51,480 nucleotides of DNA from an uncultured Flavobacteriales bacterium (GTDB taxonomy: Bacteria > Bacteroidota > Bacteroidia > Flavobacteriales > Crocinitomicaceae): NCBI GenBank assembly GCA_946480085.1, contig CAMLHZ010000020.1:1-51480 (forward strand), read 5' to 3'. Positions 2,388-29,872 of this stretch are shown here, piece after piece. A program made the translations under genes and the position numbers. Numbering within the stretch: the stretch's first letter is position 1; the number at the start of each line of letters is the position of its first letter. The notes below the pieces were generated by a model. It worked only from the letters and a program-made list of their open reading frames with translations. It searched no databases and was not told the DNA's origin.

Positions 2388-2402
2388 AGTGTACAAATAA
2401 AA

Positions 2403-2438
2403 AGTCCCGCTAATGTTCAATTAGATCACAGCGGGACT
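2403..2438 (-). terminator. Intrinsic terminator after POT copy 2
   Basis: On the minus strand, AGTCCCGCT and AGCGGGACT form a perfect 9-bp stem around an 18-nt loop, followed by TTTTTATTT. It lies just after the stop codon of the second POT gene and before the ATG of the first, so each transporter is probably its own transcription unit. Confidence 0.85.
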
Positions 2439-2456
2439 CAAAGATAAAAGATTTTG

Positions 2457-3992: not shown

Positions 3993-4032
3993 ATAATTAA
4001 AGTATGTTACCGGTAAAAGTCGGGAAATTAAT

Positions 4033-4070
4033 TCAAAAAAAATCCCTCTGTAATTTTACAAAGGGGTTTT
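4033..4070 (-). terminator. Intrinsic terminator after POT copy 3
   Basis: Read on the minus strand, CCCCTTTGTAA and TTACAGAGGG form a hairpin with a wobble or mismatch and an AA loop, followed directly by a run of eight T. It lies about 20 nt after the stop of the 594-residue POT gene. Confidence 0.8.
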
Positions 4071-4090
4071 AAGAGTCAAATCAATCGTGA

Positions 4091-12261: not shown

Positions 12262-12291
12262 TCAAATAATTTCCATTCGACCACGAATAAT
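12262..12291. promoter_or_regulatory. Candidate LytTR operator: 9-bp direct repeats at 21-bp period
   Basis: TCAAATAAT (12262-12270) and ACGAATAAT (12283-12291) are direct repeats exactly 21 bp apart. The second is preceded by TTCGA at 12276. The same 9-mer, with the same period and a preceding TTCGA, occurs upstream of pbpC at 22008-22058. LytTR regulators are known to bind two roughly 9-bp direct repeats about two helical turns apart. The site ends 78 nt before the A2M start codon. Confidence 0.5.
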
Positions 12292-12368
12292 CAAAACCTG
12301 ATTTCGACTCCTAAAACAACACGCTTTATTCTTCAGCATTGCTACACCTTTGATTCAAACTCAAAGTC

Positions 12369-15300
12369 ATGTATCGTATTATCTTATTAATCATTTGCGT
12401 TTCCGCTACTCTCTTTTACAGCTGCAAGCAGAATCAAACACTCGTTTCTGTTGATCCGAAGTACCAAAAATGGGTTGCTGGCTACACTTACGGTGTTATT
12501 TCAAATGTCGAAAACATCACCATTGAATTGAGGGATGAAATGGATTCTAGCCTTATTGATGAATTGGAGCTTAAATCCAATATGGACAATAAGATCCTGA
12601 ACGAGATTCTGGAAATAAGTCCTGCCATTGAAGGAAAAGCGAGTTGGACAGATGAACGCACTATTACTTTTGAACCGAAGAACCGACTTCAATCCGGACA
12701 ATTGTATACTGTTACTATGGATTTAGAAAAGGTAGCAAAAGTAGAAAGTGGCTATGAAGAGTTTGTATTTCAGTTTGCTACAATTCCACAAAAAATCACT
12801 GTAGATGACGTTTATGCTATGGAATACGATTCGTACAACACCGAATGGTATTACGTAGACGGAACCATTTCATTGAGTGATTATTGTGACACATCCAAGT
12901 TAAAAGATGTTCTAAAGGCAAAATACCAGGGAAAATCACAAGCCATTACGATTAACGAAGGTTACAATGGTAATTCCTATTCATTTAGAATTGATAGTCT
13001 AAAACGTGGACAGAAATCAAGAACATTGGAACTTTCCTGGAATGGAGAACCTATCAATTCAGCTTCAAAGGGTTCAAAACATATAGAAATTGCTTCTCTT
13101 CATGATTTCAGTTTGGTGAGTTTTGATGTGAAGAACGAAAAAGAACAATCCGTTGTACTCACCTTTTCTGAAGCACTTCAAGTCAATCAGGATTTGAAAG
13201 GTTTGATTGACATCGAAGGAATTGAAGGCGAAACGTTTTCGGTTTATTACAATCAGGTTACCGTTTATCTTCCTCACAATATCGAAGGAACAAAACCTCT
13301 ACACATTCACACTGGAGTTCGAAATCATAAAGGCATTAAAGCGGAGAATGCTGTCACTAAAAACATCACCTTCATGCTCCCTGGTCCGCAATTGCGAATG
13401 CTGGGGGAAGGGAGTATCCTCCCCGACTCTAAAGGCTTGATCTTTCCTTTTGAAAGCTTGGGATTAAAATCTGTAACCGTTCGGGTAATTAAAGTCTACG
13501 AAGAAAATGTGCATCACTTTCTTCAAGTGAACGACTTGGATGGTTCTGACGCCATCTTCCGTTTTGGGAAGAAGATCTATGAGAAGAATATTGACCTCGA
13601 TATTCCAAAAAAAGATAAAGCCAATTGGACCACAAACGTTCTGAATCTGGAACATTTCATTAAACCGGAACCGGGAGCGATATATCGAATTTCACTCAAG
13701 TTCGATAAAAAAGACACCTATTGTGATTGTCCTTTAGAAACTGAAAACTCTGAACAATCCGAAGAGGACGAAGAATGGAGCGAATACACCTGGCACATGG
13801 ACGATTGGGACGACGGTTACGCTTCTTGGGGTGGTTACGACAATGAAGATTCTCCGTGCAGTGACGATTATTACTACGGAAAAGCAATTTCGACCAATAT
13901 TCTGGCTTCAAACCTCGGAATCATCTTTAAAATGGATAGCTTCAAAACGGGACACACCTTCATTACAGATATGAATACAACTGTTCCCATTTCCGATGTG
14001 AATGTGACATTCTACGATTTCCAAAAGCAAGTAATCTCATCTGGAAATACTGATTCTCAAGGAATGCTCCAAACCAATTTTTCACGCAAACCATTTTTGA
14101 TGGTAGCAAAACATGGGAGACAGCGAGGTTACCTGAAAGTAAGTAATATGCACGCTAATTCCACCAGTGAGTTTGATGTAGAAGGTGAAGCAAACGAAGC
14201 AGGAATTCAGGGTTTTCTCTATGGCGAAAGAGGTGTTTGGCGACCGGGAGATTCCATTTTTGTCAACTTCATTTTACGCGATTTGGAAAAGAAGCTTCCA
14301 GCAAATCATCCTGTAACATTTAGTCTCACCAACGAATCGGGAACTGAAGTTTCAACACTTACAACTACAAAATCCCTTAATGGTCACTATTTGTTCAGAA
14401 CAGCTACCGAGGTTTACGCTCCAACAGGAATGTATACAGTTACCGCTACTGTCGGATCAAGAGAATTCACAAAATCGCTGCGAATAGAAACCATTAAACC
14501 GAATCGATTGAAGATCGATCTGAAACTTCCAAAAAGTGCTTTTGCAGATAGTAATGCAGTTTTGAAATCGAGATGGCTGCATGGAGCGCCCGCAAGGGAA
14601 CTGGAAGCGAAGGTTGAAGTGGAATTACACGCACAAAAAACAGTAATCGATGGCTTCAAAGATTATGTTTTCGATTCGCCGATCAAACAATTGTCCAGTA
14701 TGCCAACGGTTCTCTTCGATTCAAAACTCGACTCAGAAGGTAAAACAGATTTCGAATGTATGATTCCCAATATCAGCAATGCTCCCGGAATCCTGAAAGC
14801 AACTTACACCACTCGCATTTTTGAAAAAAGTGGCAACTACTCTATTGATCGTTTCACGGAAAATTATTCGCCGTATAACCATTACGTGGGAATCAAAATA
14901 CCGAAGAAAGAAGCAGACAACAGTTTGATCTCTGGTCAAAAACATGCCTTTCCATTGGTTATTACCGATGTGAACGGAAAAATCTGTACTCAACAGAAAA
15001 AACTCAAAGTTCGCATTTACAGAATGGAATGGCGCTGGTGGTATGAAGCTGGTGAAGATGATTTCACGGATTTCATTTCCAGAAACGGGAACATGGTGGT
15101 TTTCGATTCAACAATCATCACTTCCACTGGAAAGAGTGCTTTCAACTTCGGCATTCCCGAAGAACAATATGGACGTTTCCTGATTACTGTAACAGATGAA
15201 CGTGGTCAACACCAAACAGGTGAAACCATCGTCATCGACCAACCATATTGGAGTCGTGGAAACCAGAGTAACAACTCTTTTGCTTCGATGTTGAACTTTT

Positions 15301-17939
15301 CAACAGATAAGAAAGTGTATCAAAAAGGAGAAGAAGTGAAAGTAAGTATGCCCACAGCTTCATCAGGAAGAGCATTGGTTTCCATCGAATCGCAAAAGAA
15401 AATCCTGAAGAAATTCTGGATAGAAACACAAAAAGGAGAAACGGTGTTTACCTTCAATACAACTGCAGAAATGACTCCGAATGTGTACATACATATTTCA
15501 TTACTACAGCCGCACAGTTCAACAGTAAACGACTTGCCAATTCGTATGTACGGAATTATGCCAATCATGGTGGATGATCCCGAAACACATTTGGAACCAA
15601 AAATCACGACCGATAAAACCTGGAAACCAGAGACGACAGAAAAAATAACCGTTTCGGAATCAACTGGAAAAGCAATGACATACACTGTTGCCATTGTTGA
15701 TGATGGACTGCTCGATTTAACGCGATTCAAAACACCGAATCCATGGAGTAAATTCTATTCGAAAGAAGCACTTGGAGTAGAAACCTGGGATATGTATGAC
15801 GATGTAATTGGCGCTTTTGGTGGACAACTGAACAAAATGATCAGTATTGGTGGTGATGGTTCTGCCAACGATGGTGCCGGACCAAAAGCCAATCGTTTCA
15901 AGCCAATGGTTCACTTCATCGGACCTTTCTATTTGCCAGCTGGTAGCACACAAACACATGAAATCGCTCTTCCAACTTACATTGGCTCCGTTCGTGTAAT
16001 GGTGGTTGCTCACAACGATGATTGCTTCGGTTCTGCAGAAAGTACCGTTCAAATTAAAAAGCCTTTGATGATTCTTGGAACCTTGCCTCGTGTATTGGGA
16101 CCAACAGAAACCATTCAATTGCCCATTGATGTTTTTGCAATGGAGAAGAATGTCAAAAATGTAAAAGTTACGGTTACTACAAATGATTTCCTTCAAATCA
16201 AGGGTGGAAATAGTCAGCAACTCTCCTTTGTAGAAATTGGTGACGAGTTGGTGAACTTTGAACTGAAGGTTGCTGATAAATTAGGAATAGCTAAGATCAA
16301 AATTGTTGCAGAATCTGGTTCGGAAAGAGCAGTTCAGGAATTTGAAGTAGATGTGCGATCTGCGAATCCCGTTGTTCGCGAGACAACAATGAAAAAATTA
16401 CGACCAGGAGAAAGTGTGAATATGTCTGTGGTTGCGGATGGTTATGCCGGAACCCACAAATTCCTGATAGAAGCCAGTTCGGTTGAACCTATCAATTTTG
16501 CGCAGCGAATGGATGAACTGATTTGTTATCCTCATGGTTGTATTGAACAAACCACTTCTGCCGTTTTCCCACAATTACTGGCGCAAGATGTAATGAATTT
16601 ACCAGCGAAGGATCAGGAACAAATGGTTAAAAACATCAATATCGCTTTGAACAGATATAGAAGTTTCCAGAATTATCAAGGAGGATTTGCCTATTGGCCA
16701 GGAAAAACAGATGAAAGTGAATGGGGAACAAACTACGCTGGACATTTTATGATCGAAGCTGAATTAAGAGGCTACTCCGTTTCCAGTGAGATGAAAAGCA
16801 AATGGCTTGCATTCCAAAAAGATATGGCGAATAACTGGAGCAGTACAAAAGGAACTGTTCACGATTACGACGAAGCAACGAATGAATTGACACAAGCTTA
16901 TCGTTTGTACACCTTAGCTTTAGCAGGTTCTCCGGAATTAGGCGCAATGAACCGAATGAAGGAAATTGACAACTTATCGAACGTCGCAAAATGGCGTTTG
17001 GCAGGTGCATATCATTTAGCGGGACAAAAAGACATTGCGAAGAAACTGGTTTCAGGAACTTCTACAACTGTCAATAAGTACAGAGAATTCTCCTACAGCT
17101 TTGGCTCCGATTTCAGAGATGAATGCATGATTTTGGAAATGACGAACCTCATCCAACCTGGTAAATCAGCAACTCTTCGCAAAAAAGTATCTGAAGTCTT
17201 GTCTTCCAAAAATTGGTTGAGCACGCAGGAAACCTCTTACGGATTGATTGCGATGACATCTAGTTCATCAAAATTGTCTGGACTTCAACTGAAGGTGAAC
17301 GGCGAAAACATCGATTCGAAGAAACCTGTCATCAACAAACAATATGGAGAATCCGATTGGGGTAAAAAGAAAAAAGTAACCATTCAAAATACCTCATCAA
17401 ACACCATTTATGTTTCCCTTACCACTTCAAAGATTCCAAGAATTGGAAAGGAAAAGAAACTGGATAAAAAACTAAAGATGTTCGTTTACTACAAGAACAT
17501 GAATGGCTCAAAACTGAACCCAGCCGAGATTGTTCAGGGGACCGATTTCTACATTACAGTTCAATTGACAAACCCAAGTAAGTTGATGTACAAAGAAATG
17601 GCCTTGAGTCAAATTCTGCCCTCAGGTTGGGAAATCATGAGTGCAAATGTCTCAGATGAAAATTCAGGAAGTACTGCAGAATACCAAGACATTCGTGACG
17701 ACAGGGTTTACTCCTATTTCAACCTCAATCCCGGACAAAGCAAGAATTTCAATATTCAAGTGAATGCTTCTTACTTGGGAACTTACTATCTGCCTGGAAT
17801 TTACGCAGAAGCCATGTACGACAATTCTGTTCGATCACAATCCAAAGGAAGTTGGGTGAAAGTGGTCAAGGGCGGAGACTTACTCATGAAGAAATCAAAG
17901 AAATTGTTCAATCCCCAATCAACCAGAACTAAGAAGTAA
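12369..17939 (+). CDS. Alpha-2-macroglobulin family lipoprotein with thioester
   Basis: A 1856-residue envelope protein. A lipoprotein signal ends 'LFYSC' (Cys 19), so it is membrane-anchored. The long N-terminal part is a chain of beta-sandwich (MG-type) domains, including 'GERGVWRPGDSIFVNFILRD' typical of the MG2 region. The thioester motif C1391-I-E-Q1394 in 'YPHGCIEQTTS' is intact, so the protein should trap attacking proteases covalently, as bacterial A2Ms of the YfhM type do in the periplasm. The thioester-domain helices follow, and the protein ends in a receptor-binding-like beta domain. An unusual acidic stretch at about residues 450-505, rich in Asp, Glu, Trp, Tyr and Cys, interrupts an MG domain. 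Bacterial A2M genes are often next to pbpC; here pbpC is 4.2 kb downstream, after a two-component system. Confidence 0.94.
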   Translation: MYRIILLIICVSATLFYSCKQNQTLVSVDPKYQKWVAGYTYGVISNVENITIELRDEMDSSLIDELELKSNMDNKILNEILEISPAIEGKASWTDERTITFEPKNRLQSGQLYTVTMDLEKVAKVESGYEEFVFQFATIPQKITVDDVYAMEYDSYNTEWYYVDGTISLSDYCDTSKLKDVLKAKYQGKSQAITINEGYNGNSYSFRIDSLKRGQKSRTLELSWNGEPINSASKGSKHIEIASLHDFSLVSFDVKNEKEQSVVLTFSEALQVNQDLKGLIDIEGIEGETFSVYYNQVTVYLPHNIEGTKPLHIHTGVRNHKGIKAENAVTKNITFMLPGPQLRMLGEGSILPDSKGLIFPFESLGLKSVTVRVIKVYEENVHHFLQVNDLDGSDAIFRFGKKIYEKNIDLDIPKKDKANWTTNVLNLEHFIKPEPGAIYRISLKFDKKDTYCDCPLETENSEQSEEDEEWSEYTWHMDDWDDGYASWGGYDNEDSPCSDDYYYGKAISTNILASNLGIIFKMDSFKTGHTFITDMNTTVPISDVNVTFYDFQKQVISSGNTDSQGMLQTNFSRKPFLMVAKHGRQRGYLKVSNMHANSTSEFDVEGEANEAGIQGFLYGERGVWRPGDSIFVNFILRDLEKKLPANHPVTFSLTNESGTEVSTLTTTKSLNGHYLFRTATEVYAPTGMYTVTATVGSREFTKSLRIETIKPNRLKIDLKLPKSAFADSNAVLKSRWLHGAPARELEAKVEVELHAQKTVIDGFKDYVFDSPIKQLSSMPTVLFDSKLDSEGKTDFECMIPNISNAPGILKATYTTRIFEKSGNYSIDRFTENYSPYNHYVGIKIPKKEADNSLISGQKHAFPLVITDVNGKICTQQKKLKVRIYRMEWRWWYEAGEDDFTDFISRNGNMVVFDSTIITSTGKSAFNFGIPEEQYGRFLITVTDERGQHQTGETIVIDQPYWSRGNQSNNSFASMLNFSTDKKVYQKGEEVKVSMPTASSGRALVSIESQKKILKKFWIETQKGETVFTFNTTAEMTPNVYIHISLLQPHSSTVNDLPIRMYGIMPIMVDDPETHLEPKITTDKTWKPETTEKITVSESTGKAMTYTVAIVDDGLLDLTRFKTPNPWSKFYSKEALGVETWDMYDDVIGAFGGQLNKMISIGGDGSANDGAGPKANRFKPMVHFIGPFYLPAGSTQTHEIALPTYIGSVRVMVVAHNDDCFGSAESTVQIKKPLMILGTLPRVLGPTETIQLPIDVFAMEKNVKNVKVTVTTNDFLQIKGGNSQQLSFVEIGDELVNFELKVADKLGIAKIKIVAESGSERAVQEFEVDVRSANPVVRETTMKKLRPGESVNMSVVADGYAGTHKFLIEASSVEPINFAQRMDELICYPHGCIEQTTSAVFPQLLAQDVMNLPAKDQEQMVKNINIALNRYRSFQNYQGGFAYWPGKTDESEWGTNYAGHFMIEAELRGYSVSSEMKSKWLAFQKDMANNWSSTKGTVHDYDEATNELTQAYRLYTLALAGSPELGAMNRMKEIDNLSNVAKWRLAGAYHLAGQKDIAKKLVSGTSTTVNKYREFSYSFGSDFRDECMILEMTNLIQPGKSATLRKKVSEVLSSKNWLSTQETSYGLIAMTSSSSKLSGLQLKVNGENIDSKKPVINKQYGESDWGKKKKVTIQNTSSNTIYVSLTTSKIPRIGKEKKLDKKLKMFVYYKNMNGSKLNPAEIVQGTDFYITVQLTNPSKLMYKEMALSQILPSGWEIMSANVSDENSGSTAEYQDIRDDRVYSYFNLNPGQSKNFNIQVNASYLGTYYLPGIYAEAMYDNSVRSQSKGSWVKVVKGGDLLMKKSKKLFNPQSTRTKK

Positions 17940-17970
17940 AATAACCAAACACCTACTTTGAGTTTTAGGT

Positions 17971-18008
17971 ACTGCGCTGATTTTTCGGAGTCGGCGCAGT
18001 TTTTTTTT
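17971..18008 (+). terminator. Intrinsic terminator after the A2M gene
   Basis: ACTGCGC (17971-17977) and GCGCAGT (17994-18000) pair across a 16-nt loop, followed by eight T. It lies 31 nt past the A2M stop codon. Confidence 0.88.
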
Positions 18009-18040
18009 ACAAAAACGGAAACAGGAAACATGAACTAATC

Positions 18041-18128
18041 CTCCTTTGAGGGAGGACGGAGGAGGGTGGTAAAATAATGAATTGTATAACGAAGAACACC
18101 ACCCCTCTTAATCTCCCCTCAAGGGGAG
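18041..18128. repeat. Imperfect inverted repeat element in the A2M/LytTR intergenic gap
   Basis: A left arm at 18041-18070 (starting CTCCTTTGAGGGAGG and ending GGGTGGT) matches the reverse complement of the right arm at 18098-18128 (starting ACCACCCCTC and ending AAGGGGAG) with some mismatches. The spacer is about 27 nt. Each arm also contains its own small hairpin (CTCCTTTGAGGGAG, CTCCCCTCAAGGGGAG). It resembles a miniature dispersed intergenic element and encodes nothing. Confidence 0.6.
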
Positions 18129-18176
18129 AGACTGAAGCCTACTTCTTCCTCTTTTAACTTTTCGCTTTTAACTTAT

Positions 18177-18920
18177 TTATAGCGTCTCCAACATCTTCAC
18201 CACATCAGCGCGCTTTCTTGTAGAAACGGGAATCATTTTTCCATCGGTCATAATCAAATGCCCGCCTTCTGTTTTCACAAACTCCTGGATCATTTTGGTA
18301 TTCACCAAATGTGATTGATGTACACGGTAAAATCCTTGATCGGAAAGAATATCTTCGAAATCTTTCAATGTTCTGGAAACAAGAATACGTTTTGCATTCT
18401 TGAAGAAGAATTCGGTATAGTTCACGCTGCTTTCACAGCGAATAATATCTGAAATCTGAACAATGTGAATCTTGTCCTGTGCATGTAAAGCCAAGCGCTC
18501 TTGTTTCAAGCTTCCTTGCTTCAATGATTCATTCAACAACTTGTAATTGTCGGTTTCGTTCTTGTCTTCTTTTCTAAATTTATCCAAAGCCTGAACCAAT
18601 TCATCCGGATCTACAGGTTTTACCAAATAATCAATAGCAGCATAACGGAATGCCTTTATTGCATGCGCATCACTTGCCGTAATGAAAATGATCTTGAACG
18701 GAATTTCCGTGAGAATATCCAGTAAATCGAAACCTGTTCCATCTTGCATTTGAATGTCCAGAAATACAATATCCGGTTGAACTTGTTTCAACAACTTAGC
18801 ACCTTCTACCACACCAGATGCTTCTCCGATTACTTCAATGTCGGGAGCATAAACTTCCAGATCTTTTTTGAAGGTTACTCGTGCTTGTTCTATATCGTCA
18901 ATCAATACCGCTTTTATCAT
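18177..18920 (-). CDS. LytTR-family response regulator
   Basis: A 247-residue cytoplasmic DNA-binding regulator. The receiver domain (about 1-120) has the acidic pair D8/D9, the phosphoacceptor D55 in 'VFLDIQM', and the Thr/Lys switch positions in 'FITAS' and 'LVKPVD'. A LytTR DNA-binding domain fills about residues 145-245, with 'IIRCESSVNYTEFFF' and 'FYRVHQSHLVN' as its typical segments. It starts 1 nt after the kinase stop codon, so kinase and regulator are co-translated. The matching repeats upstream of A2M and pbpC are its most likely targets. Confidence 0.94.
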   Translation of the reverse strand: MIKAVLIDDIEQARVTFKKDLEVYAPDIEVIGEASGVVEGAKLLKQVQPDIVFLDIQMQDGTGFDLLDILTEIPFKIIFITASDAHAIKAFRYAAIDYLVKPVDPDELVQALDKFRKEDKNETDNYKLLNESLKQGSLKQERLALHAQDKIHIVQISDIIRCESSVNYTEFFFKNAKRILVSRTLKDFEDILSDQGFYRVHQSHLVNTKMIQEFVKTEGGHLIMTDGKMIPVSTRKRADVVKMLETL

Positions 18921-18921
18921 T

Positions 18922-21900
18922 TCAGAAAGGTATAAACAGGTTTATTTGTGTTCCACAGCCTTCATTTTCGCTGTTGAACAAATCAATTATTTCAATTCGC
19001 TGACCATCGCCCAATAAATGAAGTCGCTCCTCCGTTACAGTCAATCCTTTCGACTCGTGTTTCGGTGTTTCTTCAAATGTCTTCAATTGTCCTGAAGCTT
19101 TTCTTCCAATTCCATTATCTGCAATTGTGCACTGAATTCCATCTTGCTGCTCTTCAAAATGAACAGTGATCTTTCCTTTTCGTTGTTCTTCAGGTGAAAA
19201 GCGGAATCCGTGCTTAATGGCGTTTTCAACAAAAGGTTGAACGAGCATTGGTGGAATTTCCACGTAATTGGCTTCCGTCATTAAGTTGGTCGTGATTTCA
19301 TATTCAAAACGATCACCGGTACAGAATTGTTCCACTAACAGGTAATTTTCCAAAGTGGCAATTTCTTCTTCCAACGTAATTACGGACTTACGCGAGTTAT
19401 CCAGAATTTGTCGCATTAATCTGGAAAACTTCGCAAGGTAATAACGTGCTTTGGTTTCGTTCTCTGTTCCAATTAATCCTTGAATGGAATTCAATGCGTT
19501 GAAAATGAAATGCGGATTCATTTGTAATCGAAGCGCTTTTTGTTCTAATTCCACTAAGTTCTTCTCCAACTCAGCTTGTTCTTGTGCTTTTCTGGCTTTC
19601 TCCTTAAATCGTTTTGATTGAACTCTAAATGCCAGAATAATGATCGTCAAAACACCAATCACCAATAGAACATAAAACCAAGTCGTACGCCAATACGGAG
19701 TCGAAACCGTGATTTCAAAGCGCAAAGGCTCTTTGGAATAAACACCATCCTCATTTCGCGATCTTACCAAAAAGGAAAACGTTCCGGAAGGTAAATTGGA
19801 ATACGTAATACGTTGATCCTTTGTCCATGGTGACCATGATTCATCAAACCCTTCCATTTTCCAGGAATATTCCACCGCTTCCGGATTACGGAGATTGATT
19901 CCTTTGAAAACAAAACTCAAATGATTCTGATCATACGGCAAATCCAAACCTTCAAAAACTCCCCACGGAAGAACATGATCCTTATATCCAGTTTTTCGAA
20001 GCGATTGGTAGAACAATTGCACATCCACCAAATTCAGGATCGGAGAAATTTTGTTCACTTGTCTGTTTTCGGAGTTGTAAGCCGTAACTCCATTTACAGT
20101 TCCAATCCAAATTTTACCGTCTGGGTCTTTCCAAATACTATTTTGACACGTTTCCACGCCCAGAAAACCTTCGCCTCTATTATAATTTACAGCGCGTTTT
20201 ACATTCAGGTTCTTGTCGAAAGTCAATTGATTCAATCCTGATTCCGTTCCAACCAACAAATTGTTTTTCTGGTCGAAAATCATACAATAGATATTTGAGG
20301 AATGAAGTCCGTCTTTGATCGTAATGTTCTTTAAAACTTTGAAGGTTTTCGCATCAATTGCCATAATTCCAAAACCGGCAGTTCCTACCCAAATTCTCCC
20401 TGAATGGTCACTTGTTATTGTTCGGATAGTATTGGAGACCAAACCTTTTTCCTGAGTAATCCAAACGTGTTTCTCCGTTTGAGGACTGTAACAACCAACT
20501 CCCTTCGTTTCTGATCCGTACCAAATCATTCCTCTTGAATCAACGTGAACGGTTGTCAAACGGGTGTCCAGACAACCTTGTCTGGTCATAATTTGTGTCA
20601 TTTGCTCTTCAGGAACTTTCGAATCGATTCGCAATAAACCGTTTCCTACAGAAGCCACCCAGATAATTCCGTTCTTATCACGAACCATTTGCTTTATATA
20701 GAAACGTGTTGTTCCTTTCATCCAGTGAAATTTTCCGTCCTCCAGAATTCCAATTCCCTGACCTTCTGTTCCGAAATACATTTTTCCATTCTCACCTTCA
20801 ACAATGGCTTTCACTTTTATGGCTTCAAATCCGTTTTCCTTGTTGAATTGCCGAATGATTCCATTTTGCATTACACTGACACCGTTTTGCGCAGTTCCCA
20901 TCCACAACTGGTTTTTGGAATCGCGATAAATGGAATAAACAAAATTTCCTCCCAAGCCAGAAGTTGTAGTGTAATGTGAGAACAGCTTTTTAGAAAGTTG
21001 ACTTAATCCACCACCGGAAGTTCCAAGCCACAAATCACCGCATCGGTCTTTGATAATTGCGCGAACATGATTATTTGCTAATCCGTTAGCTTGTGAGTAC
21101 GTTGTAAATTTCCCGGTTGTGGTATTGTATTCCACCAACCCCTGAGCCAGAGTGGCTATCCAAATCTTATCTCCTTCACAATAAAAATCGAAAACGGTTT
21201 CCTTGTACAATTCCAAATGCAAATCCAAACGATAGTACATTTTCCAGTCATAGCAATACATTCCATCGCCATAGGTTCCGATCAACAATCTTCCCTTTTG
21301 GTCTTTCTCAATTTTGGTAATGGCGTTTTTCATCACTTTGGCTTTGGCCCCGTGATAAATGGTTGATTTTGTTTTGAAATGGTATTCATACAAACCTTCG
21401 CCTGTCCCTAAAAACAAGGAATTAGACGAGTAATAGATCGCATAAATGGAGATGTCTTTATTAATCTTCGGAAGTGTCTTTTGTTGTAATTTCCCATCAA
21501 CCAATTCATACAACCCGTGATTCGTTGCGCAAAACAACTGCTCATTTTTTCCTTGAGTAATTCCCGTAATTGCCAGATTAGAGCGTCGATCTGCTGTTGG
21601 GATTTTCTTGAATTTAGACCCGTTATAAACCGTTAATCCATTAGCCGTTCCAATCCAAATATTGTGTTGCTCATCCTGAAAAAGCGACGAGATGTAATTA
21701 CTGCTTATTCCCTGTTGTTCTGAAAACGTATAAAAAGTTCGTCCATCAAAACGAGATAAACCGCCGCCACGTGTTCCTAACCACAAATAACCTTTATGAT
21801 CCTGAAGAACGGCATAAATCTGTGACTGCGCGAGTCCATCATCTATCGAAAAATTACGGAAACTGGCCGACTGAGAAAAAGAAGCAGAAGCTCCCAAAGT

Positions 21901-21942
21901 CAGAAAAAGCAGTAAACAAATAAGTCGATAAATCCGTTGCAT
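18922..21942 (-). CDS. Sensor histidine kinase with reg_prop propeller sensor, LytS-type kinase core
   Basis: A 1006-residue membrane kinase. A signal peptide ending 'ASFSQ' is followed by a periplasmic seven-blade-type propeller built of reg_prop repeats, for example 'DHKGYLWLGTRGGGLSRFDG' and 'IWVGTANGL'-like units, to about residue 640. A Y_Y_Y domain ('YSWKMEGFDESWSPW') precedes one transmembrane helix near residue 760. A short coiled coil then leads to a His_kinase (PF06580) core with 'MNPHFIFNALNS' and phosphoacceptor H811, the N box 'VENAIKHG' and the G1 box 'ADNGIGRKAS'. In Bacteroidota such propellers sense extracellular ligands, often glycans. The ligand here is unknown. Its position between A2M and pbpC suggests it monitors peptidoglycan or envelope damage. 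Confidence 0.94.
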   Translation of the reverse strand: MQRIYRLICLLLFLTLGASASFSQSASFRNFSIDDGLAQSQIYAVLQDHKGYLWLGTRGGGLSRFDGRTFYTFSEQQGISSNYISSLFQDEQHNIWIGTANGLTVYNGSKFKKIPTADRRSNLAITGITQGKNEQLFCATNHGLYELVDGKLQQKTLPKINKDISIYAIYYSSNSLFLGTGEGLYEYHFKTKSTIYHGAKAKVMKNAITKIEKDQKGRLLIGTYGDGMYCYDWKMYYRLDLHLELYKETVFDFYCEGDKIWIATLAQGLVEYNTTTGKFTTYSQANGLANNHVRAIIKDRCGDLWLGTSGGGLSQLSKKLFSHYTTTSGLGGNFVYSIYRDSKNQLWMGTAQNGVSVMQNGIIRQFNKENGFEAIKVKAIVEGENGKMYFGTEGQGIGILEDGKFHWMKGTTRFYIKQMVRDKNGIIWVASVGNGLLRIDSKVPEEQMTQIMTRQGCLDTRLTTVHVDSRGMIWYGSETKGVGCYSPQTEKHVWITQEKGLVSNTIRTITSDHSGRIWVGTAGFGIMAIDAKTFKVLKNITIKDGLHSSNIYCMIFDQKNNLLVGTESGLNQLTFDKNLNVKRAVNYNRGEGFLGVETCQNSIWKDPDGKIWIGTVNGVTAYNSENRQVNKISPILNLVDVQLFYQSLRKTGYKDHVLPWGVFEGLDLPYDQNHLSFVFKGINLRNPEAVEYSWKMEGFDESWSPWTKDQRITYSNLPSGTFSFLVRSRNEDGVYSKEPLRFEITVSTPYWRTTWFYVLLVIGVLTIIILAFRVQSKRFKEKARKAQEQAELEKNLVELEQKALRLQMNPHFIFNALNSIQGLIGTENETKARYYLAKFSRLMRQILDNSRKSVITLEEEIATLENYLLVEQFCTGDRFEYEITTNLMTEANYVEIPPMLVQPFVENAIKHGFRFSPEEQRKGKITVHFEEQQDGIQCTIADNGIGRKASGQLKTFEETPKHESKGLTVTEERLHLLGDGQRIEIIDLFNSENEGCGTQINLFIPF

Positions 21943-22007
21943 TTTGTCCGTTTATTGAACTAAACGAAAGTAATGAAAAGCATAGATTTAGCGCCAAAAT
22001 TCCGGTT

Positions 22008-22058
22008 TTGAATAATAATTCGAATGGAACGAATAATTGCTTCGAACTAACGAATAAT
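22008..22058. promoter_or_regulatory. Candidate LytTR operator: three 9-bp repeats at exact 21-bp period
   Basis: TTGAATAAT (22008-22016), ACGAATAAT (22029-22037) and ACGAATAAT (22050-22058) are direct repeats spaced exactly 21 bp apart. TTCGAA precedes two of them (22019 and 22041). The group lies between the divergent kinase and pbpC start codons, ending 58 nt before pbpC and starting 66 nt before the kinase. It could control both. The same 9-mer and period appear upstream of A2M. Confidence 0.6.
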
Positions 22059-22115
22059 AATTCTTGTAAAAACTGACCAAAATCTCGGCTTAGATTTCAT
22101 CTAAAATGAACGGAA

Positions 22116-24440
22116 ATGATTAGCAAACGTTGGGCATTTTATAAGAGAAACAAGAAGATGATCCGCAAATGGCTTTTCCTATTTGTCTTTGTGTGGTATA
22201 TTTTTTCCTTGCCCGAAAAACCGTTCGATGAAAATTACTCCACCATCTTGATGAGCAGTGAGAATGAATTATTGGGTGCACATATTGCCAGTGACGGACA
22301 ATGGCGTTTTCCACCAAGCGGGAATACACCTTATAAATTGCGCGTTTGCATCACACGTTTTGAAGACAAGCAATTCAGAACGCATATTGGATTTAGCACA
22401 AAAGGAATCTTACGTGCATTTAAACTCAACATCAGCAGTGGCGAGATCAAATCAGGCGGAAGTACAATTACCCAGCAAGTTGTTCGCTTAATGCGGAAAA
22501 ATCCTCCAAGAACTTACTTCGAAAAGATGAGTGAATTGGTAATGGCTACGCGGGTCGAATTGCATTATAGCAAAGACGAAATCATGAACATGTACAGCGC
22601 GCATGCGCCGTTTGGGAATAATGTAGTAGGAATTGAAGCCGCGTCATGGCGCTATTTTGGCAGAAGTCCTGAAAAACTGAGCTGGGCAGAGAGTGCCACC
22701 CTGGCTGTGCTACCGAATGCTCCGGGGTTAATCTATCCGGGGAAGAATCATGATAAATTATTGGCAAAACGCAATCGACTATTAAAAGACTTGTTTGAAA
22801 ATGAGTTCATAGATAAGATCACTTATCTCACGTCTATTGAAGAAACATTACCTAACAAACCGCTACCACTGCCACAAAAGGCTCCACATCTTTTGCAACG
22901 CTGTATCAAATATGAGAAGGATCAACGCATTCAAAGCACCTTGGTTTCAGAATATCAGGACATGGCCAATGAAGAGTTGAACAATTACATCTCCAATCTC
23001 GACGAACAAGGAATCCATAACGGTTCCATTTTGATTAGCTCGGTAGAAACAGGAGAGGTTTTGGCGTACGTTGCTAACATTGAAAATGAGGACGATTCGC
23101 AGGCGGCAGATGTAGACTGTATTCAAGCAGCTCGGAGTCCGGGAAGCGTTTTGAAACCTTTACTTTACATGAAAGCCATGGAACAGGGAATTATTACTCC
23201 AGAGCAATTGCTTCCGGATGTCCCCTCCAAATTCGGGAATTTTAGTCCAAACAACTTTAGCAGACAGTACCAGGGAGCAATTTCAGCAAATAAAGCACTT
23301 TGCAAGAGCTTAAATATTCCAATGGTTTACTTACTCAGAGAATACGGACTTTCAAAATTCCACAACGATCTAAAACGATTGGGCTTTCATAAAATGAATA
23401 AAAACGCTCAGCATTACGGCCTTTCATTGATTTTAGGCGGTGGTGAAGCAAGTAGCTGGGAAATCAATTCATGTTACAATTCTTTGGCTTCATCAACCCT
23501 GAACAAGCAGCCCATTCAGCTTCATTTCAATAAGGAAACGAATGGAAAGAAATTAGCGACATATGAAAATGCAGCTTGTGCTTATTCCATGTTCAACTCA
23601 TTAACCGAAGTTTCTCGTCCGGACGAAGATAACAATTGGAAAGCATTCGAATCGGCTGAAAAAATTGCATGGAAAACAGGAACCAGTTTTGGTTTAAGAG
23701 ATGCGTGGGCTGTTGGTATAACGCCAAAATATGTAGTCAGTATTTGGGTTGGAAATGCGAGCGGAGAAGGACAACCAGGTTTAACAGGGGTGAAAGCAGC
23801 TGCTCCTCTGCTCTTTTCCATTTTTCGAAAGTTGACTAAAAGCAATCGCTGGTTCACAGCACCTGAAAACCAAATGGTTAAAGCAGATGTTTGTTCCATA
23901 AGTGGGAATATTGCATCACGGTTTTGTGAGAAGACAAAAAAACAACGCATTCCACGAAATTGTCTGGGAGCACCAGTTTGTTCATTTCATCAAATGATTC
24001 ATATGAATAGGGATAACAGTTTTAGAGTAAACTCTTCCATTCTTTCACCGAATGAAATGAAACATGTTTCATGGTTTATGCTTCCACCTTTAATGGAAAG
24101 GTACTATAAAGCATCACATCCGGAATATGTTTCGCCACCACCATTCGACCCAAGATGTGTTGGAAACTCGGAAAGGCAAATGGGCTTCATTTATCCAAAG
24201 CCAAATACTCAAATTCACATTCCAAAGGAAATCAATGGATTACGTGGAAAAACGATTTTCGAAGTTTCTCATAGAAATGGAAACTCCACATTATTTTGGC
24301 ATTTAGATGATGTGTTTTTAGGTACAACAGTAGAGATCCATCAGATGGGAATTCTTACCAGTAAAGGGATTCACACAATTACTATTGTAGATGAACAAGG
24401 TAGGTCGATCAGTGAAAAATTTGAAGTAGTTTCAGAATAG
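22116..24440 (+). CDS. pbpC: Penicillin-binding protein 1C (bifunctional class A PBP)
   Basis: A 774-residue inner-membrane peptidoglycan synthase. One N-terminal anchor helix (about 16-31) is followed by a GT51 transglycosylase domain with E83-D84 in 'RFEDKQFRTH', 'GGSTITQQ' at 114-121 and a second acidic motif in 'HYSKDEIMNMY'. The transpeptidase domain has the SxxK nucleophile S344-V-L-K347, SxN at S398-L-N400 and K520-T-G-T523. The last 85 residues match the BiPBP_C domain typical of PBP1C. Length fits the family. In other bacteria PBP1C is paired with an alpha-2-macroglobulin, proposed to protect the periplasm when the wall is breached, and the A2M gene is upstream here. The stop codon touches the convergent gene's stop codon, with no intervening base. 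A second in-frame ATG 42 nt downstream is an alternative start. Confidence 0.95.
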   Translation: MISKRWAFYKRNKKMIRKWLFLFVFVWYIFSLPEKPFDENYSTILMSSENELLGAHIASDGQWRFPPSGNTPYKLRVCITRFEDKQFRTHIGFSTKGILRAFKLNISSGEIKSGGSTITQQVVRLMRKNPPRTYFEKMSELVMATRVELHYSKDEIMNMYSAHAPFGNNVVGIEAASWRYFGRSPEKLSWAESATLAVLPNAPGLIYPGKNHDKLLAKRNRLLKDLFENEFIDKITYLTSIEETLPNKPLPLPQKAPHLLQRCIKYEKDQRIQSTLVSEYQDMANEELNNYISNLDEQGIHNGSILISSVETGEVLAYVANIENEDDSQAADVDCIQAARSPGSVLKPLLYMKAMEQGIITPEQLLPDVPSKFGNFSPNNFSRQYQGAISANKALCKSLNIPMVYLLREYGLSKFHNDLKRLGFHKMNKNAQHYGLSLILGGGEASSWEINSCYNSLASSTLNKQPIQLHFNKETNGKKLATYENAACAYSMFNSLTEVSRPDEDNNWKAFESAEKIAWKTGTSFGLRDAWAVGITPKYVVSIWVGNASGEGQPGLTGVKAAAPLLFSIFRKLTKSNRWFTAPENQMVKADVCSISGNIASRFCEKTKKQRIPRNCLGAPVCSFHQMIHMNRDNSFRVNSSILSPNEMKHVSWFMLPPLMERYYKASHPEYVSPPPFDPRCVGNSERQMGFIYPKPNTQIHIPKEINGLRGKTIFEVSHRNGNSTLFWHLDDVFLGTTVEIHQMGILTSKGIHTITIVDEQGRSISEKFEVVSE

Positions 24441-25964
24441 CTAAAAACTCCAATAAGCAAAACGGTAGTTTCGATAAGTTGAAAATTGCAAGAGCATTTT
24501 ATTCGTGTCAATCGTTTTCCAGAAAATAGGAGCTGCAGTTAATTCAAAAACTGTTCTGTCAAAGAGCATTTTACGTTCGTAACTTTTGTTGTCTAAATTA
24601 TACCTGACTTCAATCACTCCAAATGCTGGTTTAATTAGTCGATCTCTTTTCAGCTTTGGACTATCTGAAACGTATTCTCCTGCAGCAGTATATAAATCAG
24701 TGTAATCATTGAAATAAAAGACCAATTCATTTTCCTTAGATTGTCTTACAGAACTCATAATATTCTGTGCATTACCGAAATTGGACGTAGTACTTTTAGG
24801 AAGTACCACACAGCTGATAATCGAATCATTATGCACTTTTACAAGTAATAAATCTGTAGACAAGTACGATTCAGTATTTTTATGAACGATTGTTGCAACT
24901 CGTTCCCACACATAAATAAGAGAATCTTTGTGATAAAACGTTTCCAACAACTTCATATCCTTGCAAACGTACTTTTTACTTTTAATTGTTTTTTGATGCC
25001 TATTCGAAAAGCGCAAATCAAGTTCGGTCAACTCAACCGATTGTTCACGAGGCAAAAGTTTTACAACAACGTCACTTGAAATGGTATCTGACACCGAAAA
25101 AGAAAACAGTCCGCTAAAATGATCCTTCTCTGTGCAGTAAACACCAAGTCCAGAAATTGAATGATCATCAAATACGCACTTGATTTTAGTTAAATATTCA
25201 TTTCCTGGCGGTAGAAGCGTTATTACATTTGAAGCGTTCTTTTGAATAACATGTAATCGAACGGCATCCATTCGACGATTACTTTTTCGTTCATTTAGTA
25301 CTTTATCAAGTAGAACATACTCAGAAACTATAATTTTTCCATTGTTAGTGAGCCAAACGTCTTCAAAACTGACATCGGTTGCTTTTTTGACTCCTTGTAT
25401 CTCCCCATCAGAAATTAGCGCATTTGAGCCAGAAAACTGCATATAGCTTAATGATTTGATCTGAGAACCTTGCTCAGTAAACAACTGATAAATAATGTAG
25501 TTTGATCCATCAGGAGAAACCAGAACATTTCCGTTTTCCCAGCTTTTGTTTGAAAATCGTGGGACGGAGACAATCAATTTTGCATCATCAACCGCCAGGC
25601 AAAGTGAATCGTATTGTTGAACATAATAATCAAACGTTTCTGTATTTCGCACGCAAAAGAATACCGACAAGGTATCACTGATAAATGCAAAACTTTTGTA
25701 ATCAATCCAATTCTCATTGAATTTATCCGGAAGTCGCTGCTTTGCCAATAATGTCAACTGCGAATAGCTTTTTAGAAAACGGTACTCTTTCACACCTTGT
25801 AACTCAGTTGTAACTATGACAAATCGACTAGAATCCTTGATCAAAACATTTTGAAGAATTCCTTTGTCAGCCTCCAATTCACTTATTTGCAGGTTCTGTG
25901 AGAACAAACAAATTGAACTCAAAAAAAACATAACAAAACAGAATATGTACTTATAGAAAATCAT
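24441..25964 (-). CDS. Secreted protein of unknown function, tandem paralogue 1
   Basis: A 507-residue protein with a signal peptide (MIFYKYIFCFVMFFLSSICLFSQ). The mature part is all strand-like with no cysteine-rich or enzymatic motif that I recognise. It is the most diverged of four related proteins on this strand. Shared features are the 'VFYFNDYTDLY...EYV' segment near residue 415, where the others have FFND, and an ending of the type 'LLQFSTYRNYRFAYWSF'. The spacing of strands suggests a propeller-like fold, which is an inference. It converges on pbpC with the stop codons touching. A 200-nt gap and the plus-strand small gene separate it from its paralogues. Confidence 0.78.
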   Translation of the reverse strand: MIFYKYIFCFVMFFLSSICLFSQNLQISELEADKGILQNVLIKDSSRFVIVTTELQGVKEYRFLKSYSQLTLLAKQRLPDKFNENWIDYKSFAFISDTLSVFFCVRNTETFDYYVQQYDSLCLAVDDAKLIVSVPRFSNKSWENGNVLVSPDGSNYIIYQLFTEQGSQIKSLSYMQFSGSNALISDGEIQGVKKATDVSFEDVWLTNNGKIIVSEYVLLDKVLNERKSNRRMDAVRLHVIQKNASNVITLLPPGNEYLTKIKCVFDDHSISGLGVYCTEKDHFSGLFSFSVSDTISSDVVVKLLPREQSVELTELDLRFSNRHQKTIKSKKYVCKDMKLLETFYHKDSLIYVWERVATIVHKNTESYLSTDLLLVKVHNDSIISCVVLPKSTTSNFGNAQNIMSSVRQSKENELVFYFNDYTDLYTAAGEYVSDSPKLKRDRLIKPAFGVIEVRYNLDNKSYERKMLFDRTVFELTAAPIFWKTIDTNKMLLQFSTYRNYRFAYWSF

Positions 25965-26164
25965 TTGAACGTCTGTAAATAGTCAATAATACAACAAAAA
26001 ATGGACTTGACTTTGTGCAACAGAAATACAGCAAATGCTAAAAAATTACCATTCAATCTATAAAAGCTACAGTTTAAATTTTAGTCGGTTTTTAATTACA
26101 ACTTTCAAGTTTTTGTAGCGTTATTGAGGAAAGAAACGAATAGTAAATATCAAATACACTCACC

Positions 26165-26491
26165 ATGAACAGCGTTAGCGAAAACACACTAAATACCTAT
26201 CGAAGAATCGAAGCTATTTGTATCCAGAATCATGATGTTTGGGAAAATGTTCCCGAGTTTAGAGGAGCGTTTTCAAGGTTCTCATTAAAAGTGGCGCAAT
26301 TAGATTTACTGGCAAACAATCATAACGCATTAAATCATTTTTTAAGCCATCCGTTGCACAGCTTAGAAAAGATCTTAAAAGATATTGAACACATATTATT
26401 AATGAGTTTTGATCGCTATTTCGATTACTTAAGAAAGCGCAATCAACAATTCTATAACATGTATTCATCTGTCCGTGTAATTGCGGACTAA
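26165..26491 (+). CDS. Small protein of unknown function (108 residues)
   Basis: A 108-residue, mainly helical, soluble protein without a signal peptide. It is rich in aromatic and His residues ('NNHNALNHFLSHPLHSLEKI'). I accept it as a gene because it starts with ATG, is the only long reading of this stretch, lies between two minus-strand genes and is followed 27 nt later by a strong hairpin terminator. I do not recognise a family. It interrupts the row of four secreted paralogues on the other strand. Confidence 0.6.
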   Translation: MNSVSENTLNTYRRIEAICIQNHDVWENVPEFRGAFSRFSLKVAQLDLLANNHNALNHFLSHPLHSLEKILKDIEHILLMSFDRYFDYLRKRNQQFYNMYSSVRVIAD

Positions 26492-26518
26492 CTTTCCATA
26501 ATAGTAGTAGTGTTAGGT

Positions 26519-26552
26519 AAAACGTCCATCCCGCATGCGAGATGGACGTTTT
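26519..26552. terminator. Bidirectional intrinsic terminator
   Basis: AAAACGTCCATC and GATGGACGTTTT form a perfect 12-bp stem around CCGCATGCGA, with T tracts on both strands. It lies between the convergent 108-residue gene (plus) and secreted paralogue 2 (minus) and can serve both. Confidence 0.9.
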
Positions 26553-26572
26553 TAATTTCAATCAAAAGGCTT

Positions 26573-28096
26573 CTAGAACTTTAAGGTTCCAAAACTTTCC
26601 ATTCCAATCTTATACAAGTGAATCATAATTTCTTCGGTTTCGTAATTCACGAGAGTAGAACCAGGAATGAAACAAATTTTATCCTGTTTCTCTTCACCCA
26701 AAACAACTAACCGGTTTCGTTTGATTTCACCTGTCTTCAAGTTTACACTAGCTCTAGCCACAGCATTTTTCGGAATAACCCCATATGCAACTTCACCATC
26801 AGTTTTGTTGTATTCATTGTTAGGTGTGTAATTTTGTTCCTGATCGTTGAAGAAGAATACAAACTCCTTTTCCGTATGGTATGAGGCAACACCTCCAGCA
26901 TATTTATCACCTGGTTCAACCGGTAGAAATTTGTCTGCACTTGACGCCCAGGAAACATCACCGTTCTCATTAATCAGATAAATAATCAGGTCCGAAAAGT
27001 AGTGCACAGGAGTATCAATTGAGATCGCCAGCTCTTGCTGTTCAAGAACAAAACATAAACCTTTATCCGCTGTTTCAAAAACATCAACCGTGTGAAAAAA
27101 ATGCTGATAATTATGGTTACGACTAAATTGATGGATTCCCATATCAACCCATCTCGAGTCGAAAGCTCCAGGTTGAAGATCATGACAGGTTTGTTTCATC
27201 ACTGTTTGTGAATCAAAATCAAATTGGAAGAAGAAAAGTCCAGCCTGCTCTTTAACACCATAAACACCCGAACAAATTAATTCATTTCTCAAATCAGCAT
27301 TCAATTCCATGTCAGCGATCATTCTACCGTTAAGGTCTAAATTCATATCCTTCAAACTAAGTGTAGTGTTACCGGTTGAACTAAACTTCGTAATACATGT
27401 TTCCTTTAAAGATTCCCGATAAAGATCTCTACCACTGTCTCTAACATTGTAAACATTGGTTCCCTGATAGTATTCTCCAGAATTCGATAAATGGCGTGAA
27501 ATAATTTTGAACTCGTTCGGAATGTACTGTGTTAAATGCATTGATCTGGAGACAACCTTCAAATTACTGTCAAGAATCACAACGCCAACTCTGGCCTTTC
27601 CAGAACCGGCATCAGCATCCTCAAATTCAACCGCTATAAATTCATTGTTTTTAGATTGAGTAATATTAAACGTATGTATGCCTGATGCATCTTCGTTAGT
27701 TTCGTACTCGGCAATTGGAGTTTCACTGTCGGTTGGCACATGTGCTTCATTATAAGTTCTGATAAACAACTTTCTGGCTTTACCTTTAGCCACGTACATA
27801 AACATTGTGAGCCTGCCGTTCAATACCAATGTTTGATTAATACTCGCATCGTTTTTCCCAACCTTTGGTTCACATGCAACTTCTGCGTCCTGAATCAGAT
27901 TGGTGTAGTGATAGACATATCTTTTCCCAAAACGGTCACGCGTAACCGTGTAAGCACTGTTTTCATTAACAGTATATAATACTGGATATCCTTTTGATTC
28001 GGTTTTTGCAAATGGCATTGCTTTGACCTCCTGCGCATTTACTTTTCCAAAAGCAATCAAGGTTAAACAAACTGTCAATTTAGATATTGTATTCAT
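26573..28096 (-). CDS. Secreted protein of unknown function, tandem paralogue 2
   Basis: A 507-residue exported protein with a signal peptide ending 'KVNAQ'. It shares with paralogues 3 and 4 the motifs 'LSNSGEYY' near the middle, 'YYFSDLIIYLINENGDVSW', 'FVFFFNDQEQNY' and an ending 'GMESFGTLKF'. These place it in one family by eye. No catalytic motif, T9SS sorting domain or lipobox is visible, so it is probably periplasmic or released. The repeated strand-turn pattern with conserved Asp-Gly/Asn turns suggests a beta-propeller-like fold (inference). The gene is 89 nt downstream of paralogue 3, with a terminator between them. Confidence 0.8.
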   Translation of the reverse strand: MNTISKLTVCLTLIAFGKVNAQEVKAMPFAKTESKGYPVLYTVNENSAYTVTRDRFGKRYVYHYTNLIQDAEVACEPKVGKNDASINQTLVLNGRLTMFMYVAKGKARKLFIRTYNEAHVPTDSETPIAEYETNEDASGIHTFNITQSKNNEFIAVEFEDADAGSGKARVGVVILDSNLKVVSRSMHLTQYIPNEFKIISRHLSNSGEYYQGTNVYNVRDSGRDLYRESLKETCITKFSSTGNTTLSLKDMNLDLNGRMIADMELNADLRNELICSGVYGVKEQAGLFFFQFDFDSQTVMKQTCHDLQPGAFDSRWVDMGIHQFSRNHNYQHFFHTVDVFETADKGLCFVLEQQELAISIDTPVHYFSDLIIYLINENGDVSWASSADKFLPVEPGDKYAGGVASYHTEKEFVFFFNDQEQNYTPNNEYNKTDGEVAYGVIPKNAVARASVNLKTGEIKRNRLVVLGEEKQDKICFIPGSTLVNYETEEIMIHLYKIGMESFGTLKF

Positions 28097-28135
28097 TCGT
28101 TAGATTTTTTCAATTGCACTTATCCTGAAAGTAAA

Positions 28136-28163
28136 ACACCCTTGACTATTTTATCAAGGGCGT
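28136..28163 (-). terminator. Intrinsic terminator after secreted paralogue 3
   Basis: On the minus strand ACGCCCTTGA pairs with TCAAGGGTGT (one wobble) around an 8-nt loop, followed by TTTTAC. It lies 22 nt past the stop codon of paralogue 3. Confidence 0.75.
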
Positions 28164-28185
28164 TCATTTTTCACGATAATTTTTA

Positions 28186-29766: not shown

Positions 29767-29791
29767 AATTTGTTAATTGCAATAAATAAAA

Positions 29792-29808
29792 GTAAAACCG
29801 GGTTTTAC
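29792..29808 (-). terminator. Possible intrinsic terminator after secreted paralogue 4
   Basis: GTAAAAC-CCG-GTTTTAC (minus strand) is a 7-bp hairpin followed by TTTTATTT. It lies between paralogues 4 and 3. The stem is short and AT-rich, so I call it only likely. Confidence 0.45.
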
Positions 29809-29872
29809 CCTTCAATGTGCGAAAATAGGAAAGGTAAACAGGAAAAATTAGTAAATTGTTCGAATGAAGGAA

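Follow-up and report, generated by a model that had tools for sequence, protein, structure and literature searches.

The stretch of DNA analysed here (hereafter the window) comprises 51,480 nucleotides (nt) of contig CAMLHZ010000020.1 from an uncultured Flavobacteriales bacterium of the Crocinitomicaceae. In this window, a bacterial alpha-2-macroglobulin gene (A2M) and a penicillin-binding protein 1C gene (pbpC) flank the genes of a LytTR response regulator (REG) and a propeller histidine kinase (KIN), and both A2M and pbpC are preceded by 9-base-pair (bp) direct repeats with a period of 21 bp. Our comparison of related sequences indicates that these repeats are very probably operator half-sites for REG, which would activate both genes together. 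A shared LytTR regulon of A2M and pbpC had been put forward in an earlier reading of this DNA (the original prediction), and it is now supported by the arrays of relatives, by profile searches and by co-occurrence with REG. The elements concerned are the following:

12262..12270, + strand: candidate A2M half-site S1, TCAAATAAT; C at its second position (C2) in 19/19 aligned A2M promoters
12283..12291, + strand: candidate A2M half-site S2, ACGAATAAT, 21 bp from S1; C2 in 19/19, TAAT in 18/19
12304..12312, + strand: weak candidate A2M half-site S3, TCGACTCCT, 21 bp from S2; C2 in 19/19, G at the third position in 17/19, seen in the information profile
12345..12352, + strand: putative -7 box of the A2M promoter, CACCTTTG, with TTTG 45 nt from the S3 start; TTTG columns kept in the A2M alignment
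22008..22016, + strand: first pbpC copy, TTGAATAAT, probably no functional half-site, being without C2; C2 in 2/27, TAAT in 26/27 aligned pbpC promoters
22029..22037, + strand: candidate pbpC half-site S2, ACGAATAAT; C2 in 27/27
22050..22058, + strand: candidate pbpC half-site S3, ACGAATAAT; C2 and TAAT in 27/27
22091..22098, + strand: putative -7 box of the pbpC promoter, TAGATTTC, with TTTC 45 nt from the S3 start; from the alignment

The positions and letters of the five copies recognized originally (12262, 12283, 22008, 22029 and 22050) are exact on direct reading, and so is the distance of 21 bp between adjacent copies, that is, 9 bp plus 12 bp, at both genes. The weak S3 of A2M and the -7-like box that each promoter has at 45 nt from its third site were absent from that account, as was the placement of the pbpC sites in a divergent intergenic region shared with KIN. 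Upstream of their promoters, both A2M and pbpC show the arrangement of a LytTR operator, a pair of 9-bp direct repeats with a period of about 21-22 bp, and the 12-bp gap also agrees with the LytTR sites described in PMC6193735. A position matrix returned three window pairs above a score of 12 on both strands, all of them already reported (28.7 at 22029, 24.9 at 12262 and 18.3 at 22008); since the matrix was trained on close-clade relatives together with the window's own sites, these scores are not independent.

Pfam matches bear out that a LytTR regulator and a kinase are encoded between the two targets. The four genes are:

12369..17939, + strand: A2M, bacterial alpha-2-macroglobulin, 1856 amino acids (aa); Pfam MG2, bMG3, bMG5, bMG6, A2M_BRD, A2M, TED_complement and bMG10
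18177..18920, - strand: REG, LytTR response regulator, 247 aa; Pfam Response_reg and LytTR
18922..21942, - strand: KIN, propeller histidine kinase, 1006 aa; Pfam Reg_prop, Y_Y_Y, His_kinase and HATPase_c
22116..24440, + strand: pbpC, penicillin-binding protein 1C, 774 aa; NCBIfam TIGR02073 (PBP_1c), Pfam Transgly, Transpeptidase and BiPBP_C

A2M combines the MG domains, bait region and thioester domain of bacterial alpha-2-macroglobulins; it has a lipobox-like N-terminus, and a motif scan located a thioester-like GCIEQ whose cysteine is residue 1391. The PBP1C identity of pbpC rests on the TIGR02073 equivalog (647.6 bits, cut-off 494.2). In REG, the receiver and LytTR domains both score above their cut-offs (Response_reg 64.4 bits, LytTR 69 bits), and the top NCBIfam match is BtsR, which at 136.6 bits stays below its cut-off of 246. 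A search of solved structures with REG matched mostly the receiver part (60/74 among the matches listed) and was not used. KIN, with its His_kinase and HATPase_c domains, precedes REG by 1 bp on the same strand, the gene order of a two-component system. A2M and REG are convergent, and KIN and pbpC are divergent, so that the pbpC sites sit in an intergenic region that is bordered by KIN as well.

The original prediction took lack of conservation in relatives, or pairs scattered at random over the genome, as signs against such a regulon. Rarity and conservation were assessed in relatives. When 399 genomes of one order were searched with REG, 47 gave matches with an expectation value (E) of 1e-85 or lower, and the 33 with at least 67% identity form the close set; stretches were taken from 40 genomes, and 32 loci (L064-L095) represent the close clade. 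The relatives were reached outward, using as stepping stones the exclusively remote relatives found in a scan of genome contigs with pbpC, namely 20 Bacteroidales-type loci and one spirochaete. REG, KIN and pbpC share one stretch in 27 of the 32 close loci (all except L075, L080, L082, L083 and L095), and A2M lies within the fetched stretch in 23. The arrays are kept across the close clade, and the A2M array accompanies A2M also where this gene sits elsewhere in the genome, as in several relatives; in L072 and L073, A2M is found downstream of pbpC. As a separate observation, L080 and L082 (genomes G747 and G648) have a REG orthologue without a propeller-kinase match in the fetched stretch, with A2M still near, and the REG neighbours inspected at several loci of the wider group are likewise not kinases.

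Promoter alignments, anchored on the half-sites and including the window in both, comprise 27 pbpC and 19 A2M rows; they exclude L082, L094 and any locus in which no A2M start or kinase-pbpC intergenic region could be used. Both promoters follow a common plan, with sites at 0, 21 and 42 and then a TTTG near 87. Strong copies read AC[GA]nnTAAT and weaker ones, for example, AC[GA]CTTTTC, and C2 is invariant in the aligned rows at all half-sites except the first pbpC copy. In the information profile, the letters and spacing of half-sites and TTTG are better kept than most of the intervening sequence. The strongest sites of A2M are S1 and S2, that is, one register farther up than at pbpC. The two A2M copies originally reported are both real, and what had been overlooked is the weaker third. 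At pbpC, three copies are indeed present, but three equal half-sites were ruled out: the first is without C2 in 25/27 rows, and the copy at 22008 is therefore probably not bound in the same way. TTCGA, originally noted before several copies, does occur in the window (12276, 12303, 22019 and 22041) but is incidental; found in the spacer of 2/26 pbpC relatives and 0/18 A2M relatives, it was discarded as part of the motif.

Downstream of the repeats, TTTG lies 44-46 nt from S3 in 24/27 pbpC and 19/19 A2M promoters, within the two best positions of a TAnnTTTG score that was chosen after the rows had been viewed. Moreover, in 12 distant A2M promoters the proximal half-site lies 44-45 nt (six) or, one register farther, 65-66 nt (six) from the box, and in six further candidate sites 44-45 nt, in each case among the two best positions or level with them. 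Given a 19-bp spacer, and judging from the putative -7 box, the proximal half-site would precede the expected -33 element by about 9 nt. In addition, the spacer after the first pbpC copy contains CAAA[GT]ATA in 15/26 relatives, which reads TAT[CA]TTTG on the opposite strand; this reverse complement of TATCTTTG or TATATTTG is likely the -7 box of the divergent kinase gene. CAAA[GT]ATA does not occur in the window's own pbpC array.

Profile searches extended these observations to genomes that had contributed no row. Profile R1 was built from 18 A2M promoters (L090 left out) and profile R2 from 27 pbpC promoters; 17 of the 33 close genomes gave R1 rows and 26 gave R2 rows. R1 had a match at E<=1.3e-8 in 25/33 close genomes, and R2 at E<=7.5e-9 in 27/33. 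Among the matches listed, there is one such strong match per genome, at A2M or pbpC, and not a random scatter; the remaining genomes have weaker best matches. In the 16 genomes unused for R1, the top match lies directly upstream of A2M in 14 (G505, G614, G664, G740, G571, G674, G703, G481, G469, G648, G710, G583, G549 and G747), with E values from 2e-17 (G481) and 3e-11 (G505) to 0.013 (G747). G747 was scored from the A2M position in the locus, and G740 from an A2M-like reading frame after the match. In G505 and G614 the top match is at A2M although this gene is about 17-30 kilobases (kb) from REG. For R2, the top match is at pbpC in four of seven unused genomes (G664, G703, G469 and G773). 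Across the 399 genomes of the order, and with stricter filters, R1 gave 28 matches at E<=1e-4, of which 27 belong to the close set (10 not in training). The other is in G604. This genome contains a stretch resembling an A2M promoter, but neither A2M nor pbpC was matched at E<=1e-60 and REG reaches only 42%; we did not consider it further, as its assembly probably has a gap. Candidates for additional targets in G448 (L174) and G481 (L175) did not convince us and were discarded.

In distant genomes, the A2M pair tends to occur together with REG, the presence of which was defined as at least 50% identity. Panel 1 comprises 33 genomes, 20 with A2M and 18 with an A2M N-terminus (L198 and L202 left out). 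Panel 2 comprises 80 genomes, 35 with A2M, which yielded 30 loci and 26 usable ones (L270, L272, L285 and L290 left out); five genomes with an A2M match but no locus were also excluded. The use of genomes without a close REG as negative controls proved wrong: in panel 1, 12/18 A2M promoters have the pair (scores 17.6-25.7), and all 12 genomes carry REG at 52-58% identity. In panel 2, the pair scores at least 15 in 4/26. Altogether, 16 of 44 distant A2M promoters reach a score of at least 15, each beating all its 60-100 shuffles, and the pair is present in 14/21 REG-bearing versus 2/23 REG-lacking distant genomes (Fisher p 1e-4, kinship not corrected). A midpoint-rooted tree of 90 REG homologues has a branch (100/99) that separates the close set from all other rows, and a group of 58 rows (100/99) contains the close set plus 24 of the 25 rows of 50-63% identity.

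A natural loss was found in G457 (L250). No REG or KIN occurs in the 19.5 kb around pbpC and A2M of this genome, and the only REG homologue at E<=1e-50 has 42% identity. The promoters of both genes are similar to their counterparts in G517 and G703, and the A2M upstream region is still alignable, with most of the leader kept and the -7 box almost intact (TCATCTTTA for TCATCTTTG). C2 is lost in both A2M half-sites.

Several results weigh against control of both genes by REG. When up to two mismatches to ACGAATAAT are allowed on both strands, the window contains four pairs at a spacing of 21, three of them the reported ones, while 100 first-order Markov simulations gave 0.58 pairs on average and never more than 4; in the same test, spacings of 19 and 29 yielded five and four pairs. 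This excess is modest, so that the window alone is weak evidence and would suit repeats that arose by chance in AT-rich intergenic sequence or reflect recent shared ancestry. The strength of the R1 test also varies, because a number of the 16 unused genomes are closely related to training genomes and because the A2M match is barely ahead of the runner-up in G583 (0.0019 vs 0.0023) and G747 (0.0128 vs 0.0162); in G590 and G773, the top match falls on a stretch without A2M. R2 missed three of its seven unused genomes (G747, G648 and G783), with top matches that have neither A2M nor pbpC nearby, and R1 meets pbpC promoters at noise level (E 0.07-0.26 in 5/33 genomes, among the matches listed). 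Nor was a clear -33 box identified in these promoters. Chance or shared ancestry is nevertheless already contradicted, and we regard it as highly improbable: half-sites and TTTG outlast most of the sequence between them, R1 led to the A2M promoter in 14/16 unused genomes, and 16/44 distant A2M promoters rank above all their shuffles.

The arrays could also be real operators bound by another LytTR paralogue, with REG controlling something else. Many of these genomes encode several LytTR response regulators, the inspected neighbours of REG in the wider group are mostly not kinases, and the A2M pair occurs in G480 and G489, two possibly incomplete genomes in which no REG of at least 50% identity was found. 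Further results against control of both genes by REG come from the distant genomes and from G457. Seven of the 21 REG-bearing distant genomes are without a strong A2M pair (G561, G494, G458, G405, G423, G470 and G427); five of them (G494, G405, G423, G458 and G470) fall in one subclade of the REG tree, and G427 is outside the 58 rows. Outside the close set, the pbpC pair exceeds all 100 shuffles in 4/11 A2M-pair genomes (G704, G399, G579 and G514), and the pbpC part of the regulon is weaker there. In G457, the pbpC S3 copy is kept despite the loss of REG. We find binding by a paralogue quite unlikely, as REG is tightly linked to its targets in the close clade, pair and REG co-occur in the distant panels, and both A2M half-sites have decayed in G457. 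It is likewise unlikely that REG represses A2M and pbpC, or that the pbpC array mainly autoregulates the divergent kinase-regulator operon. Such a role would fit an array placed between KIN and pbpC, with the reverse complement of a TATCTTTG-like box in its first spacer in 15/26 relatives. However, orientation and distance to the -7 box are equal at pbpC and A2M, and A2M is without a divergent regulator gene; moreover, the position of the sites is like that of LytTR activators (PMC6193735).

In the joint activation by REG that we favor, KIN would use its propeller and Y_Y_Y domains to sense a state of the periplasm or envelope and would phosphorylate REG. The regulator would then bind as a head-to-tail dimer on a pair of half-sites, S2-S3 at both genes plus S1-S2 at A2M. 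Bound just upstream of the expected -33 region, a position that points to activation, REG would switch on A2M and pbpC jointly. Since the putative KIN -7 box lies in the first pbpC spacer in 15/26 relatives, REG bound at this place may also exert feedback on the operon of KIN and REG. We infer binding, phosphorylation and the direction of control from protein families and site geometry, and the label of envelope defence from the two gene families.

A third target may exist in part of the close clade. In G502, G526, G538 and G523, second-best R1 matches lie upstream of apparently the same two genes, coding for a 491-aa protein without a Pfam match and then a GDSL hydrolase (domains scanned in G502 only). 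The promoter of this pair reads TCAAATAAT N12 [GA]C[AG]GATAAT, with the box at 44 nt, and the loci (L173 at 2343-5172, L176, L179 and L180) belong to Fluviicola-like genomes; the four E values, 3e-4 to 0.015, are singly weak. Single candidate sites also precede a gene for a 208-aa lipoprotein-like product (G614) and a gene for an SH3-domain protein (G740).

In the YfhM-PbpC type, A2M and pbpC are adjacent genes with expected co-expression; in the window, genes of the same two protein families lie apart, each with its own array. In 14 of the 44 distant genomes, pbpC directly follows A2M, as judged from coordinates in G561, G484 and G795 and from a pbpC match within the 1.5-kb flank in 11 genomes of panel 2. 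The A2M pair is present in none of these 14, versus 16 of the 30 others (Fisher p 5e-4, kinship not corrected). The panel 2 search for pbpC was confined to the A2M flank, except for G732; the 30 others include G457, with pbpC about 1 kb upstream of A2M, and G732, in which no pbpC was found. This exchange of operon for regulon is suggestive only. Tentatively, the order may keep the coupling of A2M and PBP1C either with A2M and pbpC as a gene pair or, in genomes that have them apart, via LytTR arrays in front of them, with the polarity of the exchange unrooted. By the same view, which we hold with reservation, the clade of the window would be one in which regulator and propeller kinase sit between both targets.

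Further LytTR-family regulators of the same kind are AgrA, ComE, AlgR and BtsR. LytTR sites are 9-bp repeats mostly with 12-bp gaps, often about 10 bp upstream of the -35 element, and many listed half-sites begin with AC, as here (PMC6193735). The closest parallel in that source is HdrR/BrsR of Streptococcus mutans, with two 9-bp direct repeats, a 12-bp gap and a 21-bp period. Unlike in HdrR/BrsR-type systems, the letters here are AC[GA]nnTAAT, the targets A2M and PBP1C, the half-sites three in a row at A2M and the -7 box of Bacteroidota type, and the partner is a propeller kinase, not a membrane inhibitor. The LRS-like LytTR operons of Bacteroides (PMC6193735) also have a LytTR regulator and direct repeats, placed 11 bp upstream of a promoter with a TATCTTTG box. 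They differ in their 11-bp repeats and 11-bp gaps, in a regulator with membrane segments and in the autoregulation proposed, and the available part of the source names neither A2M nor PBP1C among them. Similarly, the accessible portion of PMC10197871 gives no link of a Flavobacterium johnsoniae LytTR mutation to A2M or pbpC genes. In the openly licensed literature, we found no paper on LytTR and alpha-2-macroglobulin in Bacteroidetes, on macroglobulin and PBP1C together with a response regulator, on bacterial alpha-2-macroglobulin with pbpC, or on a LytTR regulon under the term "Flavobacteri-". The mechanism is already known; the proposed regulon is undescribed.

Two other parts of the window contain gene families. 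At 24441-31423, four genes on the minus strand code for 507-526-aa proteins, mutually distant paralogues (about 19-26% identity in the matches found), three of which were scanned and are without a Pfam match. At 720-5875, also on the minus strand, there are three consecutive genes for POT-family peptide transporters with about 29-33% mutual identity.

To our knowledge, little has been described of how bacteria control alpha-2-macroglobulin and its partner PBP1C. This locus names a candidate regulator, a candidate sensor and the exact bases for such control. If our reading is true, an envelope sensor would govern both protease trapping and peptidoglycan synthesis, and the locus would offer a clean case of a regulator evolving together with its two sites.

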